Part shown: positions 17,764-27,165 of the stretch, in pieces
Position numbering within the stretch: position 1 is the first letter of the stretch
Layout of the letters: the number at the start of each line of letters is the position of its first letter
Made by a program: the position numbers and the translations under genes
The notes under the pieces: generated by a model
What the model was told of the DNA's origin: nothing
Databases searched by the model: none
Seen by the model: only the letters and a program-made list of their open reading frames with translations
Assembly: GCF_918698005.1 (NCBI RefSeq)
Contig: NZ_CAKKLJ010000004.1
Location: 62,001-126,000, forward strand
Direction of reading: 5' to 3'
Origin: Microbacterium sp. Bi121
Lineage (GTDB): Bacteria > Actinomycetota > Actinomycetes > Actinomycetales > Microbacteriaceae
DNA: 64,000 bases

Positions 17764-19833
17764 GTGGCAGCACGTTCCGGCAATCGTCCCGCGGCGCTTC
17801 GAAGCTCCGCCGAGATCCCCCTGCGGGCGCGCGCGACCACGCCGCCCCCCGAGACCCGAACCGGACGCATCCCGCTGACGGATCCACGGCCGTCGGCACC
17901 AGGCGGCTTCGCAGCCAAGGCCTTCGCCGGCGAGGTCGTTCCGTTCAGCGTCGTGGCCTTCCGCGAGGGGCACGATCGCATCGGCGTCCACGTCCGCCTG
18001 ACAGCGCCGGACGGTGCGGAATCGCTGCACCGCCTCGTCGCTCTCGGCGATGGCAGCGACCGCTGGTCGGCGGACGTCGCCCTCGATGCGCAGGGCCTCT
18101 GGCGCTACCGCTTCGAGGCGTTCGCCGACGACTACGCCACCTGGGCGCACGCCGCGTCCGTCAAGATCGCGGCCGGAGTGGACGTTCCCGTGATGGCGGC
18201 ACTCGGTCGCGACCTGCTGGCGGCGGCCGCGGCCGACAAGAACCGCCCGGCGACCGAGCGTTCATCTCTGGCGCGATCCGCCGCCGTCCTGGAAGATGCG
18301 GATGCCGTCACCGCCCTGGGCGTCGCGATGGATGCCGATCTCGCTGCCGTGTTCCGCGCTCGCCCCGCAGCGTCTCTATCGGCGCACACACCCGAACTGA
18401 CGCTTGTCGTGGAGCGGGCGGCGGCTGGGGTCGGGGCCTGGTACGAGTTCTTCCCCCGTTCCGAAGGTGCCAAGCGCGCCAAGGACGGCACGATCAAGAG
18501 CGGCACGTTCCGCAGCGCAGCCAAGCAGCTCACCCGCGTCGCCGGCATGGGTTTCGACGTGCTCTACCTGCCTCCCATCCATCCGATCGGCCGCACGCAC
18601 CGCAAGGGTCCGAACAACACCCTGAAAGCGAGTCCGGTCGACCCAGGTTCGCCGTGGGCGATCGGTGCGGTCGAGGGCGGTCACGACGCCGTGCACCCCG
18701 ATCTCGGCACGCTCGCGGATTTCCGCTTCTTCGTCCGCGAGGCGCGCAAGGCGGGAATCGAAGTCGCTCTGGACCTCGCACTGCAGGCCTCCCCCGACCA
18801 CCCGTGGGTCTCGTCGCACCCCGATTGGTTCACCGCCCTCCCCGACGGCACGATCGCGTATGCGGAGAACCCGCCCAAGAAGTACCAGGACATCTATCCG
18901 CTGAACTTCGACCGCGACCCCGAGGGCCTGCGCGAGGAGGTGCTGCGGGTGGTCAGGCACTGGATCGCACAGGGCGTCAAGATCTTCCGCGTGGACAACC
19001 CCCACACCAAGCCGTTGCAGTTCTGGGAGTGGCTGATCGCGCAGGTCATGTCGACGGACCCCGACGTGGTGTTCCTCGCAGAGGCCTTCACCCGCCCGGC
19101 TCCGCTGCGCAGTCTTGCGGCCGCTGGGTTCCAGCAGAGCTACACGTATTTCACCTGGCGCAACACCAAGCGCGAGTTGGAGGAGTTCCTCACCGGGCTT
19201 GCGACCGAGACCGCCGACTATCTGCGTCCCAACCTCTTCGTGAACACGCCCGACATCCTCACCGAGTATCTGCAGTTCGGCGGCCGCGCCGCATACAAGG
19301 TGCGAGCGGCGATCGCCGCGACGGCGGCACCGACGTACGGTGTGTACGCCGGGTACGAGCTCTTCGAGAACGTCGCACGACCGGGCTCGGAGGAGAACAT
19401 CGACAACGAGAAGTACGAGTACAAGCTGCGCGACTTCGTCGGCGCGGAGGCGTCAGGCGACTCCCTCGCCCCGTACCTGCGCCGTCTGAACGAGATCCGC
19501 CGAGCGCATCCTGCGCTGCGGCAGCTGCGGAACCTCGCGGTGCACTGGAGCGACGATGACAGCATCCTCGTGTATTCGAAGCATCTCGACGGCACGTTCA
19601 CGGCCACGGGCGACGCGGACACCGTCCTCGTCGTCGCGAACGTCGACCCGCACTCGGTGCGCGAGACGACCGTGCATCTCAACACGCGCGTCTGGGGCGT
19701 CGACCCCGGCGAGACCTTCGAGGTCGAGGATCTCATCACCGGAGAGACCTGGACGTGGTCCGATCACGACTACGTCCGGCTCGATGCGTTCGCCGAGCCG
19801 GTGCACATCCTCCACGTGAAGGCGCGCTCATGA
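17764..19833 (+). CDS. glgE: Alpha-1,4-glucan:maltose-1-phosphate maltosyltransferase GlgE
   Basis: GlgE extends linear alpha-1,4-glucan by transferring maltosyl units from maltose 1-phosphate. The 689-aa GH13_3 protein has the family opening GRIPLTDPRP after an N-terminal extension of about 37 residues. The nucleophile is D411 in KIFRVDNPHTKPLQFWEW and the acid/base is E440 in FLAEAFTRP. Their separation of 29 residues matches the structurally known Streptomyces enzyme. The maltose-1-phosphate supply genes (treS/mak or glgC/glgM) are not in this window. The stop overlaps the glgB start as ATGA. Confidence 0.96.
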   Translation: MAARSGNRPAALRSSAEIPLRARATTPPPETRTGRIPLTDPRPSAPGGFAAKAFAGEVVPFSVVAFREGHDRIGVHVRLTAPDGAESLHRLVALGDGSDRWSADVALDAQGLWRYRFEAFADDYATWAHAASVKIAAGVDVPVMAALGRDLLAAAAADKNRPATERSSLARSAAVLEDADAVTALGVAMDADLAAVFRARPAASLSAHTPELTLVVERAAAGVGAWYEFFPRSEGAKRAKDGTIKSGTFRSAAKQLTRVAGMGFDVLYLPPIHPIGRTHRKGPNNTLKASPVDPGSPWAIGAVEGGHDAVHPDLGTLADFRFFVREARKAGIEVALDLALQASPDHPWVSSHPDWFTALPDGTIAYAENPPKKYQDIYPLNFDRDPEGLREEVLRVVRHWIAQGVKIFRVDNPHTKPLQFWEWLIAQVMSTDPDVVFLAEAFTRPAPLRSLAAAGFQQSYTYFTWRNTKRELEEFLTGLATETADYLRPNLFVNTPDILTEYLQFGGRAAYKVRAAIAATAAPTYGVYAGYELFENVARPGSEENIDNEKYEYKLRDFVGAEASGDSLAPYLRRLNEIRRAHPALRQLRNLAVHWSDDDSILVYSKHLDGTFTATGDADTVLVVANVDPHSVRETTVHLNTRVWGVDPGETFEVEDLITGETWTWSDHDYVRLDAFAEPVHILHVKARS

Positions 19834-22019
19834 GCAGCACGGACCGGATCACCAGCGCCGAATGGGGCGCTGTCGCCGCAGGTTCCCATCACGCGCCGCA
19901 TGACATCCTCGGGGCTCATGCGGAGACCGACGCGGCAGGTCGCACCTCGACGACCATCAGGGCTCGGCGGCCCTTCGCGGACACCGTCGTCGCGATCCTG
20001 AAGAACGGCACGCGCGTTCAACTCGATCATGCCTCTGACGGCATATGGCAGGGCACGCATCTGGGCGCACCGGTCCCCTACCGCCTGGCGGCCGTCTACG
20101 ACGGCGGGCAGGAGCAGACCTCGGGCGACCCGTACCGGCACGTCCCGTCCATCGGCGAGCTCGATCTTCATCTCATCGCCGAGGGCCGGCACGAGCGGCT
20201 CTGGGAAGTCCTCGGCGCCAACGCGCACCTGATGGACGGCGACATCGGGATCGCGTTCGCCGTCTGGGCTCCCAACGCGAAGGCTGTTCGGGTCGTCGGC
20301 GAGCACAACGGCTGGGACGGCGCAGGCCACAGCATGCGCTCGATGGGCTCCAGCGGGGTGTGGGAGCTGTTCATCCCAGGCGTGTCGCCGGGGACGGTCT
20401 ACAAGTACGAGATCCTCACCCCCGATGGATCGTGGGTGCTCAAGGCCGACCCGATGGCGCAGCGCACGCAGGTGCCGCCGGAGACGGCATCCATCGTCCC
20501 CTTCTCGGCGTACAGCTGGAAGGACGGGGCGTGGATGACGCGCCGCGCGGCGACCCACGCCGTCGCGCAGCCCATGAGCATCTACGAGGTGCACCTGGGC
20601 TCATGGCGCGGCGGCCTGGGATACCGGGAGATCGCCGATCCGCTCATCGCGCACGTCACGGAGACCGGCTTCACGCACGTCGAGTTCATGCCGCTCGCCG
20701 AGCATCCGTTCGGCGGCTCGTGGGGCTACCAGGTCACCGGCTACTATGCGCCGACCGCCCGATTCGGCGGTCCTGACGACCTGCGCTACCTGATCGATCG
20801 CCTGCACCAGGCGGGCATCGGCGTAATCCTGGACTGGGTGCCCGGCCACTTCCCGAAGGACGAGTTCGCTCTGGCCCGCTTCGACGGCCGGCCGTTGTAC
20901 GAGCATCCGGACCCTCGACGGGGTGAGCATCAGGACTGGGGCACCCTGATCTTCGACTACGGGCGCCCCGAGGTGCGCGGTTTCCTCGTCGCCAACGCGC
21001 TGTACTGGTTCGAGGAATTCCACATCGACGGCCTGCGCGTGGATGCCGTCGCCTCGATGCTCTACCTCGATTACTCCCGCCGGGAGGGCGAGTGGGAGCC
21101 GAATGTGCACGGTGGGCGGGAGAACCTCGAGGCGATCCGTTTCCTGCAGGAGGTCAACGCCACCGCCTACCGGAACCACCACGGCATCATCATGATCGCC
21201 GAGGAGTCGACGAGCTTCCCCGGCGTCACCGCGCGCACCGACCAGGCGGGGCTCGGCTTCGGGTTCAAGTGGAACATGGGCTGGATGAACGATTCCCTGC
21301 AGTACATCGCCAGGGACCCGATGTACCGCGCGCACCACGAGGGCGAGATGACCTTCTCCTTCGTGTACGCGTTCGGGGAGAACTATCTGCTGCCGATCAG
21401 CCACGACGAGGTGGTGCACGGCAAGGGAAGTCTGCTCTCGAAGATGCCGGGCGACCACACCCACAAGCTCGCGAACGCTCGCGCATATCTCGCGTACATG
21501 TGGGGGCACCCGGGCAAGAACCTCTTGTTCATGGGGCAGGAGTTCGGTCAGCTGGCCGAATGGTCCGAGAGCCGCCCGCTGGACTGGTGGCTGCTGGAGC
21601 AGCCGTCGCATGCGCAGCTGCAGCGCTTCGTCGGCGCGATGAACGGCGTCTACCGCGGCACCGCACCGCTGTGGGAGCGGGACAACGACAGCACACGTTT
21701 CCGCCGACTGGGCGCACCGGTCTGGGATCCGAACGTGATCGCCTTCGAGCGTCGGGACCTCCACGGCGGCCGCGTGGTCGTGATCAGCAACTTCGCCGGG
21801 GTGGAGCGCCCGAACCTCGATCTGGACCTGCCCGTCGCCGGAGTCTGGGAGGAGATCTTGAACACGGATGCCGCCGAGTACGGAGGAGGCGGCATCGGCA
21901 ACTTCGGGCGGGTCGCGGCGCACACGTCCGGTGATCACGGCACGCCACGGGCCAGGGTCACTCTGCCACCCCTGTCGACGCTGTGGCTGCGCTATCGGCC
22001 GGAGCGCGCCTCGTCGTAG
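19830..22019 (+). CDS. glgB: 1,4-alpha-glucan branching enzyme GlgB
   Basis: GlgB makes alpha-1,6 branches. The protein is 729 aa from ATG 19830, with two N-terminal beta domains (N1 about 25-110, CBM48 about 120-220), the GH13 barrel and a C-terminal beta domain. The catalytic residues fall at D405 (DGLRVDAVASMLYLDYSR), E458 (MIAEES) and D526 (SHDEVVHGKG), the same numbers as the E. coli enzyme. The ATGA overlap with glgE settles the start. GlgE extends and GlgB branches in the same pathway, and GlgX trims. Confidence 0.97.
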   Translation: MSSTDRITSAEWGAVAAGSHHAPHDILGAHAETDAAGRTSTTIRARRPFADTVVAILKNGTRVQLDHASDGIWQGTHLGAPVPYRLAAVYDGGQEQTSGDPYRHVPSIGELDLHLIAEGRHERLWEVLGANAHLMDGDIGIAFAVWAPNAKAVRVVGEHNGWDGAGHSMRSMGSSGVWELFIPGVSPGTVYKYEILTPDGSWVLKADPMAQRTQVPPETASIVPFSAYSWKDGAWMTRRAATHAVAQPMSIYEVHLGSWRGGLGYREIADPLIAHVTETGFTHVEFMPLAEHPFGGSWGYQVTGYYAPTARFGGPDDLRYLIDRLHQAGIGVILDWVPGHFPKDEFALARFDGRPLYEHPDPRRGEHQDWGTLIFDYGRPEVRGFLVANALYWFEEFHIDGLRVDAVASMLYLDYSRREGEWEPNVHGGRENLEAIRFLQEVNATAYRNHHGIIMIAEESTSFPGVTARTDQAGLGFGFKWNMGWMNDSLQYIARDPMYRAHHEGEMTFSFVYAFGENYLLPISHDEVVHGKGSLLSKMPGDHTHKLANARAYLAYMWGHPGKNLLFMGQEFGQLAEWSESRPLDWWLLEQPSHAQLQRFVGAMNGVYRGTAPLWERDNDSTRFRRLGAPVWDPNVIAFERRDLHGGRVVVISNFAGVERPNLDLDLPVAGVWEEILNTDAAEYGGGGIGNFGRVAAHTSGDHGTPRARVTLPPLSTLWLRYRPERASS

Positions 22020-22029
22020 CGAAGGCTCC

Positions 22030-22977
22030 TCAGAACAGCAGCGACGACAGCCTGTTGCGGGCCGCGGAGACCCGCGGGTCATCCGCGCCGATCAGACCGA
22101 ACAGTTCGACGAGACGCTCACGCACTGGCACCCGCTCCTCGGATGGCAGCACGGCGAACAGATCGAGCAGGCGTCCGAACGCGTCGTCGACGTGTCCGCC
22201 GGAGATGTCGAGGTCGGCGACGGCGAACTGCGCCTGGATGTCCCGCGGATCCGCTGCCGCTGCGGCGCGGGCCTCCTGCAGGTCGAGACCCTGCACGCGG
22301 TCGAGCAGGCGCACCTGTCCGAGCCCGGCACGGGCGTCCTCGTCGCGCGGGTTCTCTGCGAGCGCCTTCTCGTAGGCGGAGATCGCCGCTGCGAAATCGC
22401 CCTGCTCGATCGCGGCGAACGCCTCGGCGTGCAACGGCGGAAGCGGCGGCTCCTGCGGCTCCTCGTCAGCGTCAGCGGCCGGTTGCTGATCGCCGCCGAC
22501 GCTGCCGGTGACACCGTTCTGAGCGGCCACCTGCAGAAGCTGGTCGAACACCTGACGCACCTGCTCCTCTGGCACGGCACCGGTGAACATCGGCACCGGC
22601 TGCCCGGCGATGAGCGCCACGACCATCGGAATCGACTGCGCTCGGAAGCTCTGGGCCAGCTGCGGGTTCGCATCGACGTCGACCTTGGCCAGCACGATGC
22701 GCCCGCCCAGCTCGGTGACGACCTTCTCGAGGATCGGACTGAGCTGCTTGCACGGCCCGCACCACTCGGCCCACAGGTCGACGACGACAGGAACCGTCCG
22801 CGACAGCTCGAGGATCTGACCGAAGGTCGCATCCGTCACGTCGACGACGACCCCGCCCTGTGCCGGGTCCCGGTCATCGGCCGGTGCCGATGCGGGGTTC
22901 GCAGGAGCCGCGGGGCGGTTGCGCAGAGACGAGAGGTCAACGGCGCCGCGCAGAGCAGAAGCAGAGATGTCGCTCAC
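22030..22977 (-). CDS. Thioredoxin-fold TPR co-chaperone (CnoX/YbbN-like)
   Basis: A 315-aa cytoplasmic protein with a thioredoxin domain (about 42-150) and a C-terminal TPR-like helical region (from about 185). The CXXC motif WCGPC (C73, C76) is intact, so it may be redox active. In E. coli the related CnoX protects proteins under oxidative stress and works with GroEL and DnaK. A P/E-rich linker separates the two parts. The start is GTG 22977, which overlaps the upstream gene's stop (GTGA); longer in-frame sequence upstream is internal to that gene. Confidence 0.88.
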   Translation of the reverse strand: MSDISASALRGAVDLSSLRNRPAAPANPASAPADDRDPAQGGVVVDVTDATFGQILELSRTVPVVVDLWAEWCGPCKQLSPILEKVVTELGGRIVLAKVDVDANPQLAQSFRAQSIPMVVALIAGQPVPMFTGAVPEEQVRQVFDQLLQVAAQNGVTGSVGGDQQPAADADEEPQEPPLPPLHAEAFAAIEQGDFAAAISAYEKALAENPRDEDARAGLGQVRLLDRVQGLDLQEARAAAAADPRDIQAQFAVADLDISGGHVDDAFGRLLDLFAVLPSEERVPVRERLVELFGLIGADDPRVSAARNRLSSLLF

Positions 22978-24860
22978 TTGATCACTTCCACGTCGAGGGT
23001 GTCCTGGTGCACGGCGAGCAGGCGAACCTGCTCGGTCGAGCCCTGGCTGGGTACGGAGAAGAACAGCTGCAGGCTGTACGTCGTATTGACGCCCTTGGAG
23101 GCCTCCTTGGCGCCGGTGAGCACCCGAGCCTCCGGATTGTCGTCGAACTTGATGACCGCGTCGCTCGAGGTCGGCGTGATCTTCTCGCTGTCGATCAGCG
23201 AGACGGCGACGATCGCACCGCTGTCGAGCGTGGCCAGCGCGACGGGTGGCTGCTCGCTCGGCGCGATGTCGAAAGCCGTCTTGGACGTCTTCGCCGCACC
23301 GTTGTCGGCGAGCCCCTTCGTCACGGCGGCGCGGCTCGCCTTGATCGCGTCCGCCAGGGAGATGGCGACCTCGTCGAAGGATCCGTAGTACTCGCTCTCC
23401 TCGCCGGCATCCACCACATCGGCGAAGGCCGCGGCGAGCTCGTCGGGCGCGAGTGTCAGGAATGCCGCGGCGTTCTCGGTGATCAGGCTCGTTCCGAGCC
23501 ATGCCGGCGCGAGCTGCGGAACCTCGGTCGACGCCTGCATCTCTGCGATGTTCGTCACCTTGTAGTTCGACCACGGGTCGGCCTGCGTCATGGTGAGGAT
23601 CGACGGCGGAAGCGTGTCGTCGCTCTTGCTCTTGCTGAGCACGAGCACGGTGCGCGGCCAGGCGTCGGTCGCTTGGGGCAGAAGCACCTCGATCGCCTCA
23701 GTCGGAATGACGGTCGGAAGAGGACGGTCGGTGATGCCCTTGCGGAGCGTGTAGTCGGTCTGGCGTGCTTCGAGGGCAAGGCCCTCCAGCCGCGTGCCGG
23801 CGAGGTCGATGTCGAGGTCGGCGTCCGCCTGCTCGAGCGTCGACGAGATGTTCTGCAGAATGCGGGATGCCTGTGACTCCGTGACCGCCGGGGGCTTCTG
23901 GTTCTCGGGAGTGATGACGGTCTGCGTCGGGGTGGGCGTCGGCGTCGCGGCGTCGAACTGCGGCCAGGAATCGCTCGAGCATCCGACGAACATCACGCCG
24001 GCGAGTCCCAGTGCCGGCAGCGCCAGCAGACGGCGACGGTTTCTGAGAGCCCGGCGCTCGGACTTGGCGGGCTTGTCCTCCGTATCGCCCTCCGCTCCTG
24101 CTCCGGCGCCGCCGGAGCGAGCCGGCTCCTCCAGCGCTTCGCGCACCGGTGCCGGCGCAACGGAGAGATCGATCGGCTCTGTGGCTGGCAGCGGGCCCGG
24201 CCCCTTGCGGCGAGGGCCGCGTCCCCGACGCTGGTGGCGGATGGCGAGCACGTAGAGGACGAGGCCGACGAGCAGGACGATGCCTCCGGCGGTGATCAGC
24301 GGCCCCACCAGCGGCGTCGAGCGATCGAGCGGCCAGGCCACGACGATGTCGGCGGGCGCGGGCGCCGTTCCGTCCTTCGCGATGAGAACGCTCATGCCCT
24401 CGGGGAGCTGCATGTCGGTGATCAGCTGATCCTGCTCGCTGAAGGAGTCCAGCCAGAGGTCGGATCCTGCGGGGTTGCGGCCCTCCGGCGCGTCCTCACC
24501 CTCCTCCGGCGCATCCTCGCCCTCCTCCGGCACGATCGAAGCCTCGACGACCGTGCTCTTCGGATCGCCGTCGGCATCAAGACCGATCGAGGTGTAGGTC
24601 GCGTCCGCGAGCCACGCCTCGAGATCGGCTGTGCGTCCATAGGCGGCGAAGATGTCGCCGTCACCGCGGACGAGCAGCGTCTGCTGCCCCGGGTTCTCGC
24701 GCAGCACGGCACCGTCGACGAGCACGAACGGCGTGGAATCCTCGACGCTCAGCTCGGCCTGCTGGGCGGAGGGGCCCATGAAAATGGTTCGCTGAGCGAT
24801 GCCTGCTCCGATGAGGAGCGTGGCCAGGACGAAGGCCACGACGGCCCAGACGAAACGCAC
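22974..24860 (-). CDS. Large membrane-anchored protein with C-terminal DUF8094-like domain
   Basis: A 628-aa protein with three hydrophobic segments: 4-22, 185-207, and 278-293, which ends VMFVGC294SSD like a lipobox. The predicted layout is N-in, residues 23-184 outside, a basic/proline-rich cytoplasmic stretch 208-277 (RHQRRGRGPRRK, RRALRNRRR), then a large outside domain 295-628 beginning with a T/P-rich linker. A duplicated EEGEDAP lies near 112-125. The C-terminal part resembles DUF8094 of Microbacteriaceae. Function is unknown. The GTG start has AAGGAG 9 nt upstream. It is coupled by a 4-nt overlap to the CnoX-like gene. Confidence 0.7.
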   Translation of the reverse strand: MRFVWAVVAFVLATLLIGAGIAQRTIFMGPSAQQAELSVEDSTPFVLVDGAVLRENPGQQTLLVRGDGDIFAAYGRTADLEAWLADATYTSIGLDADGDPKSTVVEASIVPEEGEDAPEEGEDAPEGRNPAGSDLWLDSFSEQDQLITDMQLPEGMSVLIAKDGTAPAPADIVVAWPLDRSTPLVGPLITAGGIVLLVGLVLYVLAIRHQRRGRGPRRKGPGPLPATEPIDLSVAPAPVREALEEPARSGGAGAGAEGDTEDKPAKSERRALRNRRRLLALPALGLAGVMFVGCSSDSWPQFDAATPTPTPTQTVITPENQKPPAVTESQASRILQNISSTLEQADADLDIDLAGTRLEGLALEARQTDYTLRKGITDRPLPTVIPTEAIEVLLPQATDAWPRTVLVLSKSKSDDTLPPSILTMTQADPWSNYKVTNIAEMQASTEVPQLAPAWLGTSLITENAAAFLTLAPDELAAAFADVVDAGEESEYYGSFDEVAISLADAIKASRAAVTKGLADNGAAKTSKTAFDIAPSEQPPVALATLDSGAIVAVSLIDSEKITPTSSDAVIKFDDNPEARVLTGAKEASKGVNTTYSLQLFFSVPSQGSTEQVRLLAVHQDTLDVEVIK

Positions 24861-24918
24861 GAAAAAGTCTCCTTACGCAACCCGGACGCCGCGTCCGAGT
24901 CATCGCTCGACGTTTCAG

Positions 24919-26430: not shown

Positions 26431-27129
26431 TTACCACCAGTGGTTCGCGGTCCAGAAGGCGTAGGCGTTCGCCCAGCTGCCGTAGCGGCCCGTCGCGTAT
26501 CCGTTGCCCCAGCGCAGATTGTCCACGGGGTCGTACCCGTTGCCCGGCACCTTGCTGCACGGCAGAGCCTGCACCAACCCGCACGCACCGGACGAGGCGT
26601 TGGTGGCGTTGGGGTTCCAGCCGCTCTCCTTGGAGACGATGTAGTCGACGTAGCCCCAGTCACTGGAGGCGATGCCGGCCGCGGCCATCCATTCGGCAGG
26701 CGCGCCTCCGCCGGTGTAGAAGACGGGGCCCGGTGCCGACGAGCCCTGGGACTGCTGCGCCGAGGCGACCTTCGGCTGAGGCTTCGGCGTGGGCTTGGGG
26801 GTGACGTAGACGTCGAAGCTGCCGCGGTCCACCGGTGCGATCGTCGCGCCGGAGACGCTGACGGTGAGGTTCTGCGTGTCCTGCACCGCGAGCGAGAACG
26901 GCGTCTCGGTGTCTAGTGCCGGCTGCTCAGCAAGAGCCATGCCGGTCGGCGCGACCACGGCAGCGGCCAGCGCGACGACGCCGAACGCGGCGAAGGCGCC
27001 GGTGACACCGCGCCTGCGGGTCCAGGGTCGCTTGGCGGAAGTCGGGAGCTTCGGGGCTGCCGACGCGACCTGCGCGGAGGCACCGCTGACGGGATCGATC
27101 TCAGTACCGGGAGTCACAATAGGGTTCAT
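26431..27129 (-). CDS. Secreted/anchored lytic transglycosylase-like protein
   Basis: A 232-aa protein from ATG 27129 with an N-terminal cytoplasmic basic region (RPWTRRRG), a hydrophobic segment 43-66 ending ALAEQ (signal or anchor), a threonine/proline linker (VTPKPTPKPQPK) and a C-terminal transglycosylase domain. The probable catalytic residue is E168 in VSKESGWNP, followed by the GACGLVQALPCSKVPG and YGSWANAYAFW motifs seen in actinobacterial resuscitation- or transglycosylase-like enzymes. The likely role is peptidoglycan cleavage. GTG 27144 is an alternative start. Confidence 0.8.
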   Translation of the reverse strand: MNPIVTPGTEIDPVSGASAQVASAAPKLPTSAKRPWTRRRGVTGAFAAFGVVALAAAVVAPTGMALAEQPALDTETPFSLAVQDTQNLTVSVSGATIAPVDRGSFDVYVTPKPTPKPQPKVASAQQSQGSSAPGPVFYTGGGAPAEWMAAAGIASSDWGYVDYIVSKESGWNPNATNASSGACGLVQALPCSKVPGNGYDPVDNLRWGNGYATGRYGSWANAYAFWTANHWW

Positions 27130-27165
27130 TCTAGCCAGCGTCACCTGAGTTCACCATGAGAGTGC

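Follow-up and report, generated by a model that had tools for sequence, protein, structure and literature searches.

The window analysed here is a stretch of 64,000 nucleotides from Microbacterium sp. Bi121. One of its genes encodes a protein of 628 amino acids which, judged by comparison of sequences, is a fusion of a protein with two transmembrane (TM) segments and a former lipoprotein. We propose, with a probability of about 0.8, that this product is a polyprotein, the internal signal of which would be lipidated and cut by Lgt and LspA, or cut by signal peptidase I in other lineages, giving a two-TM protein and a lipoprotein. A broader statement also seems rather probable, namely that Lgt and LspA split a family-wide polyprotein that arose in at least two fusions, that the site switched repeatedly between type II and type I, and that selection keeps the cut and not the lipid.

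Residues 275–294 of the protein are RRRLLALPALGLAGVMFVGC, followed by SSDSWP and a T/P-rich stretch. The predicted full-length model presents helices at residues 2–26 and 185–212, a predicted local distance difference test score (pLDDT) below 50 at residues 227–319, and a well-folded domain from about residue 326. Residues 320–628 folded alone reached a mean pLDDT of 90.4 and a predicted template modelling score of 0.90. The initial annotation had described a lipobox-like segment lying behind two TM segments and before a T/P linker and a large domain. Sequence and model confirm this arrangement, the model with two TM helices, a low-confidence middle and a separately folded C-terminal domain.

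Separate genes in relatives and the origin of the fusion

Families of the genome set are given by their codes (f1, f2, f22 and so on). We take f1 to be the Microbacteriaceae, on account of its Microbacterium relatives, and presume that f2, f22 and f21 are Micrococcaceae, a Nocardiopsis-like family and Streptomyces, respectively. The classification covers 270 genomes with one locus per genome, and not every match; for f2, which had matches in 70 of the 80 genomes searched, 65 of these 70 were taken. Fragmentary order-level matches in genomes G459, G474 and G483 were left unclassified, and several class-level matches, including those of G414 and G443 (f22), stand outside the classification.

In 39 genomes from 18 further families, the N-half and the C-half of the protein are encoded by separate genes, and in every one of these genomes the two genes adjoin on the same strand. 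The C gene starts with a lipobox behind a charge-free core in 39/39. The overlap of the two genes is exactly 4 nt in 31/39, and the remaining pairs are spaced at −17 to 0 nt, as measured with the in-frame start nearest the stop of the N gene and the lipobox Cys as anchor. In the fused protein, the place of the gene junction corresponds to the linker of residues 213–274. Since the split C genes carry the segment as their N-terminal signal, the internal segment corresponds to an old N-terminal lipoprotein signal, and the 4-nt overlaps indicate that a fusion needs little beyond the loss of the overlapping stop. The initial annotation had suggested this origin and a search for separate halves in related genomes; their occurrence as neighbouring genes in all the unfused genomes supports it. 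One f1 genome, G090, was excluded from the split count because its locus (L322) looks scrambled. Its N-half and C-half stand in different frames and a piece of the C-half is repeated, which is probably an assembly or frameshift artefact.

Fused genes were counted in 127 f1 genomes, 65/65 of f2, 4/4 of f43, 17 of f22 and one of f52 (G489); an 18th f22 locus is cut by a contig end and stands outside this count. The lipobox is present in 122/127 of the fused genes of f1, in 17/17 of f22, in 4/4 of f43 and in the f52 genome. A tree of the C-domain (117 rows) and a thinned tree of both halves (72 rows) each need three changes between the fused and split states. Families f1, f2 and f43 form one clade (Shimodaira–Hasegawa-like approximate likelihood ratio test, 88 and 97), and f22 is found elsewhere. 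The tree of both halves rejects a single origin of the fused rows (approximately unbiased test, p-AU 0.00016), and these comparisons suggest that the fusion probably happened more than once. Genome G489, which was left out of both origin tests, looks like a further fusion, seen in one genome.

The internal signal and its variants

Comparison of related genes shows the homology of the segment to an N-terminal lipoprotein signal and the upkeep of this signal, as it shows the fusion itself. Across best matches drawn from Microbacterium and further genera of its family, Gly293-Cys294 is invariant in 69/69 distinct sequences, unlike the linker just before the segment, which is variable and gapped in the same alignment. 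In a wider sample of one genome per genus, the lipobox is kept in 78 of 83 Microbacteriaceae genera and is missing in five, while two further genera gave no usable gene. The commonest boxes at this level, LSGC, LAGC and LTGC, account for 53 of the 78. The Cys is also one of three invariant columns in an alignment of 26 C-half rows that includes unfused lipoproteins. No other gene among the 59 called in the window has a lipobox-like segment of this kind, either N-terminal or internal; the 59 are a small sample obtained by a rough GC-frame rule that misses real genes, among them the neighbouring gene for a thioredoxin/tetratricopeptide repeat (TPR) protein.

The segment has the proportions of a signal peptide. 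The net charge before the core is positive in all 122 f1 lipobox proteins. The median distance from the last charge to the Cys in these proteins is 17 residues, against 29 uncharged residues around TM2, and this short charge-free length indicates a segment sized as a signal peptide and not as a full membrane helix. The best 19-residue hydropathy has f1 medians of 1.93 for the segment and 2.48 for TM2. Three features speak against an ordinary third TM helix, which was rejected as the principal explanation: the charge-free length is short, the GC is invariant, and AxA or PAxA ends replace the box. In the genome of the window (G000), LspA and Lgt each have two loci above the Pfam cut-offs.

A signal of the twin-arginine translocation (Tat) type, as in the actinobacterial Rieske protein, was also considered; the strict motif occurs in 0/122 of the f1 lipobox sequences and a loose motif in 34/122. 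Two of the four split C genes of f40 (L272 of G462 and L153 of G491) begin with MTTRRTFL or MTTRRSFL, a Tat-like lipoprotein signal, and given these signals Tat may export the C-half in some lineages. The NCBIfam model "lipo-invert" was also discarded: its match at residues 270–315 is not significant (E 0.33), and it is absent from the 17 families matched by the 26 C-half rows.

At least five changes of Cys state are needed on the tree. Segments that lack the Cys often end in PAQA, PAHA, PAWA or PANA, with an acidic or S/T/P stretch behind. Expectations for such ends were obtained by shuffling each window of sequence. In 69 Cys-less proteins, AxA follows the hydrophobic core in 66, against 53.4 expected (P 1.3e-6), and PAxA occurs in 32, against 11.9 expected (P 1.8e-9). 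When f2 is reduced to one genome per genus (28), AxA is found in 27/28 against 20.5 (P 2e-4) and PAxA in 15 against 5.2 (P 5e-6). In the f2 proteins there is no significant excess of AxA after TM2 (28 against 23.0, P 0.08) and none after TM1 (22 against 23.5). Lipobox-bearing f1 proteins do not exceed shuffles in AxA (36/122 against 41.1), and no PAxA was seen in the lipobox-bearing proteins of f22 and f43. The f2 protein of G653 has TC inside its hydrophobic core and no lipobox; it was counted as Cys-less and lies outside the 69 scored. On the simplest reading of these sequences, a cleavable signal would be kept with or without the Cys, and only the type of cut would change.

Proposed maturation and alternative explanations

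From these comparisons and from established lipoprotein biochemistry, we infer the following topology, lipidation and cleavage. The N-half, composed of TM1, an extracytoplasmic domain and TM2, would insert in the membrane, and the basic linker would remain in the cytoplasm. With residues 275–293 serving as an internal signal peptide, the C-half would next be exported. A chain that begins inside, passes out and in again, and is then exported once more would place the box at the outer face of the membrane, the site of Lgt and LspA. Lgt would add diacylglycerol to Cys294, and LspA would cut between Gly293 and Cys294. The likely order is thus TM1/TM2 insertion, C-half export, lipidation of Cys294 and cleavage. 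The expected products are a two-TM protein with a stub of the cut signal and a separate lipid-anchored lipoprotein of residues 294–628, the same two products that relatives would make from two overlapping genes. In f2 and some Microbacteriaceae, the signal would have become one of the signal-peptidase-I type, and the C-half would be cut free without lipid. The release of a lipidated C-half by cleavage had been suggested in the initial annotation. It appears well supported by the presence of the lipobox in fused genes of three families and one f52 genome, and by the signal-peptidase-I-type site that is usually present where the Cys was lost.

Several observations weigh against this proposal. 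The lipobox occurs in 0/65 of the f2 genomes examined and is missing in 5/83 of the f1 genera, so lipidation is dispensable in some lineages. In the five Cys-less f1 genomes, AxA is at the expected level (5 against 4.2, P 0.41). The f2 counts belong to one clade and are not independent, and AxA is absent from 3/64 of the f2 genomes scored; two of these three end in GMA. Lipobox-bearing f22 and f43 proteins also exceed shuffles in AxA (14/21 against 8.8, P 0.009), so that AxA by itself is a weak sign that is not specific to loss of the Cys. The box of the window gene, FVGC, is unusual and appears once among the 78 genus-level boxes. As for the repeated origin, the C-domain tree alone is compatible with a single fusion (p-AU 0.503). 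Lack of conservation of Cys294, which the initial annotation had named as a refutation, is seen in f2 and in the five f1 genera. The Cys-less segments there still resemble a cleavable signal and not a plain membrane helix, so the original idea of internal lipidation is modified by these losses and not overturned.

The segment could also be lipidated or inserted and stay uncut, with the old signal serving as a signal anchor in a stable three-TM or lipid-anchored fusion. Membrane segments rich in Ala and Leu are common, so a box or an AxA end could persist after fusion, and the AxA excess of the lipobox-bearing f22 and f43 proteins agrees with this. Such a fusion seems unlikely to us, given that the box is kept over deep divergence and the linker is not, that a PAxA-type end is enriched on loss of the Cys and not after TM1 or TM2, and that the segment is short, with 17 residues to the Cys. 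Chance, or a relic without function, would be scarcely credible as the source of the motif. Lipobox-like strings do arise by chance in hydrophobic stretches and the motif is gone in f2, but GC is invariant in the 69 distinct sequences, the lipobox stands in 78 of the 83 genera, and the segment is homologous to a true lipoprotein signal in all 39 split genomes.

Two proteins would also result from internal initiation of translation before the signal, the long frame being then partly a by-product. Unfused relatives begin their lipoprotein at this segment, and the window gene has GTG codons at 204 and 239 upstream of it. However, the starts of the window gene between codon 200 and the Cys are these two, which lie far upstream, and codons 289 and 290, which lie inside the signal core. 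In-frame starts with a Shine-Dalgarno (SD)-like motif, sought 15–40 codons before the Cys, are found in 27/40 of the split C genes (G090 included). Among fused genes they occur in 11/127 of f1, 3/65 of f2, 0/17 of f22 and 0/4 of f43, and a control window in the mature domain gave 14, 5, 2 and 0, respectively. SD-backed starts near the signal are thus no commoner than in the control and are not conserved, and internal initiation, which they do not support, is very improbable.

Cleavage of a polyprotein, as preferred here, can be compared with known systems. The C-half matches the SCO2278 lipoprotein family (NF053531) over residues 316–615 (E 7.5e-10), and 25 of the 26 C-half alignment rows match the same model with E values up to 0.5; all nine members above the cut-off that were examined carry a lipobox-type Cys. 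With 38.2 bits against a curated cut-off of 210, the C-half is homologous to this family and not a member by the curators' rule, and its signal is internal, fused behind a two-TM protein. Ordinary lipoproteins processed by Lgt and LspA have the same basic n-region, h-region, box (LSGC, LAGC, LTGC) and S/T/P tether. The difference is in position, since the signal here lies at residues 275–293 behind two membrane helices and is N-terminal only in the split relatives.

The cytochrome b/c1 polyprotein FbcH is cut by signal peptidase I. It is likewise one chain in which an internal signal is cut, giving one polytopic membrane product and one anchored product outside the cytoplasm, although in most of the fused lineages seen the site predicted here is of type II, and it has changed to type I in others. 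The separate coding of the two products by relatives, as in 39/39 split genomes here, is a trait of such polyproteins. To our knowledge, FbcH and the fused protein are unrelated. Another parallel is the actinobacterial Rieske protein, whose internal Tat signal is not known to be cut. Two accounts describe two Sec-inserted helices followed by an internal Tat signal that exports the C-terminal domain (PMC9360617, PMC13186574). The fused protein shares the two helices and the internal export signal and differs from the Rieske protein in the Tat type of the latter's signal.

The N-terminus is by definition the place of a lipoprotein signal and the place where one is sought, and a search limited to it would miss such proteins. 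No account of this protein or of an internal lipoprotein signal of such kind was found in the literature searched, subscription papers being mostly outside it. If the proposal is true, LspA can process polytopic precursors, and lipoprotein inventories made from N-terminal predictions are incomplete in these Actinobacteria. One gene pair in fused and split form, together with one signal in type II and type I form, constitutes a natural experiment on what selection keeps.

Feature layout, neighbouring genes and distribution

The features of the fused gene and of the related loci are collected in Table 1. Motifs similar to the AAGGAG before the start are present in the rows of relatives, among the matches listed.

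Table 1. Positions of the fused gene, its parts, its neighbour and related loci (window coordinates, or locus codes of the genome set)
Feature	Position	Strand	Basis
Fused gene, 628 aa, GTG start, TGA stop	22974..24860	−	reading frame
SD-like AAGGAG, 8 nt 5' of the GTG start	24869..24874	−	sequence
Residues 1–26: TM1, putative signal anchor, probably N-in	24783..24860	−	model helix 2–26; conserved residues
Residues 27–184: N-half domain, mostly beta, probably extracytoplasmic	24309..24782	−	model; weak beta-sandwich matches
Residues 185–212: TM2	24225..24308	−	model
Residues 213–274: basic low-confidence linker, probably cytoplasmic	24039..24224	−	pLDDT < 50 at 227–319
Residues 275–293: predicted internal type II signal peptide	23982..24038	−	basic n-region, short h-region, lipobox FVG
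Cys294: predicted diacylglyceryl-Cys, +1 of the mature lipoprotein	23979..23981	−	Cys conservation in family
Residues 295–325: S/T/P-rich tether	23886..23978	−	sequence; low pLDDT to residue 319
Residues 326–628: SCO2278-like domain, probably two NTF2-like halves	22977..23885	−	NF053531; model; PARC6/ARC6
Thioredoxin (WCGPC) and TPR protein, CnoX/YbbN-like	22030..22977	−	Pfam Thioredoxin, TPR_20
LspA loci	G000:C4:293516, G000:C7:35322		
Lgt loci	G000:C7:45838, G000:C5:113641		
Second f43 C-half match	G450:C1:496282-499929 (L352); also G467, G482, G496		

The neighbouring gene encodes a Pfam Thioredoxin domain (E 2.3e-21) followed by TPR_20 (E 1.9e-24). Its 4-nt overlap with the fused gene, pointed out in the initial annotation, holds, since its GTG start can lie inside the stop of the fused gene (GTGA). 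A gene of this type adjoins the pair in 233/237 genomes of the families having it, where the neighbour was called by a tblastn match at E 1e-5 or better and not by individual inspection of its TPR part. It lies on the same strand in 126/128 f1 genomes, 64/65 of f2, 4/4 of f43 and 39/40 genomes of the split-state families, and is downstream of the pair except in f17 and f29, where it is upstream. No such neighbour was seen in f22, f21, f19 and f11 (0/33), within flanks of varying length. The convergent genes beside it in the window are homologues of glgE and glgB (window 17764-22019), an arrangement kept in the two other genera of the family for which wide flanks were examined (L125, L126).

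The CnoX/YbbN chaperedoxins (PMC6282202) have thioredoxin and TPR domains, which the neighbour shares in its sequence. The neighbour has a WCGPC motif and is presumably cytoplasmic, and any contact with an exported C-half would be indirect. A joint function of the two genes in redox or quality control is a guess, and its one source is the strongly conserved gene neighbourhood. As a weak guess, the N-half and C-half products might form an envelope assembly or scaffold pair, the membrane part of which contacts the cytoplasmic chaperedoxin-like neighbour.

No Pfam family matched the fused protein, none was above the cut-off for eight halves taken from other genomes, and a sequence search of solved structures brought no useful match. 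In structure comparisons, the N-terminal part of the C-half presented a middling match to the intermembrane-space domain of PARC6/ARC6 (Z 8.8, root-mean-square deviation (rmsd) 3.0, 116 residues aligned), and the C-terminal part weak matches to VirB8/TraM-like domains (Z 5.0–5.4); the best Foldseek match of the C-half had E 0.017. In the predicted model, the C-half is probably composed of tandem NTF2-like domains, the structure matches being middling and indicating no function. A resemblance of the N-half to the fold of the flippase subunit CDC50 (Z up to 8.2) was rejected. It covered 61–71 residues, or 119–144 residues mostly at an rmsd of about 10, was judged to be due mainly to the two membrane helices, and was not used.

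The protein is present in 58/59 genomes of the genus, 246/249 of the family and 85/85 genera. A profile of the C-half matched 89/90 family genomes, 49/59 order genomes and 75/246 class genomes, with no C-half match in G070. Sixteen genomes have the C-half only (f11, f19, f21 and one f22 at a contig edge) and belong to neither the split nor the fused count; the Cys is absent from the f11 match. In f21, the SCO2278-type lipoprotein corresponds to the C-half alone, with no N-half in the flanks examined (9/9). Each of the four f43 genomes has a second and weaker C-half match at a distance of about 3 kb; the open frames concerned measure 412–700 aa. The N-half also occurs in other families without a nearby C-half match. 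Twenty such relatives at class-family loci (L363–L382) presented no chaperedoxin-like match, the C-half matched just once and weakly (L382, E 3e-4), and several of them are preceded by an extra membrane part in one frame.

Elsewhere in the window, positions 26431-27144 of the minus strand encode a transglycosylase-like secreted protein with a very long region before its AxA-type signal end, which is possibly due to a wrong start.

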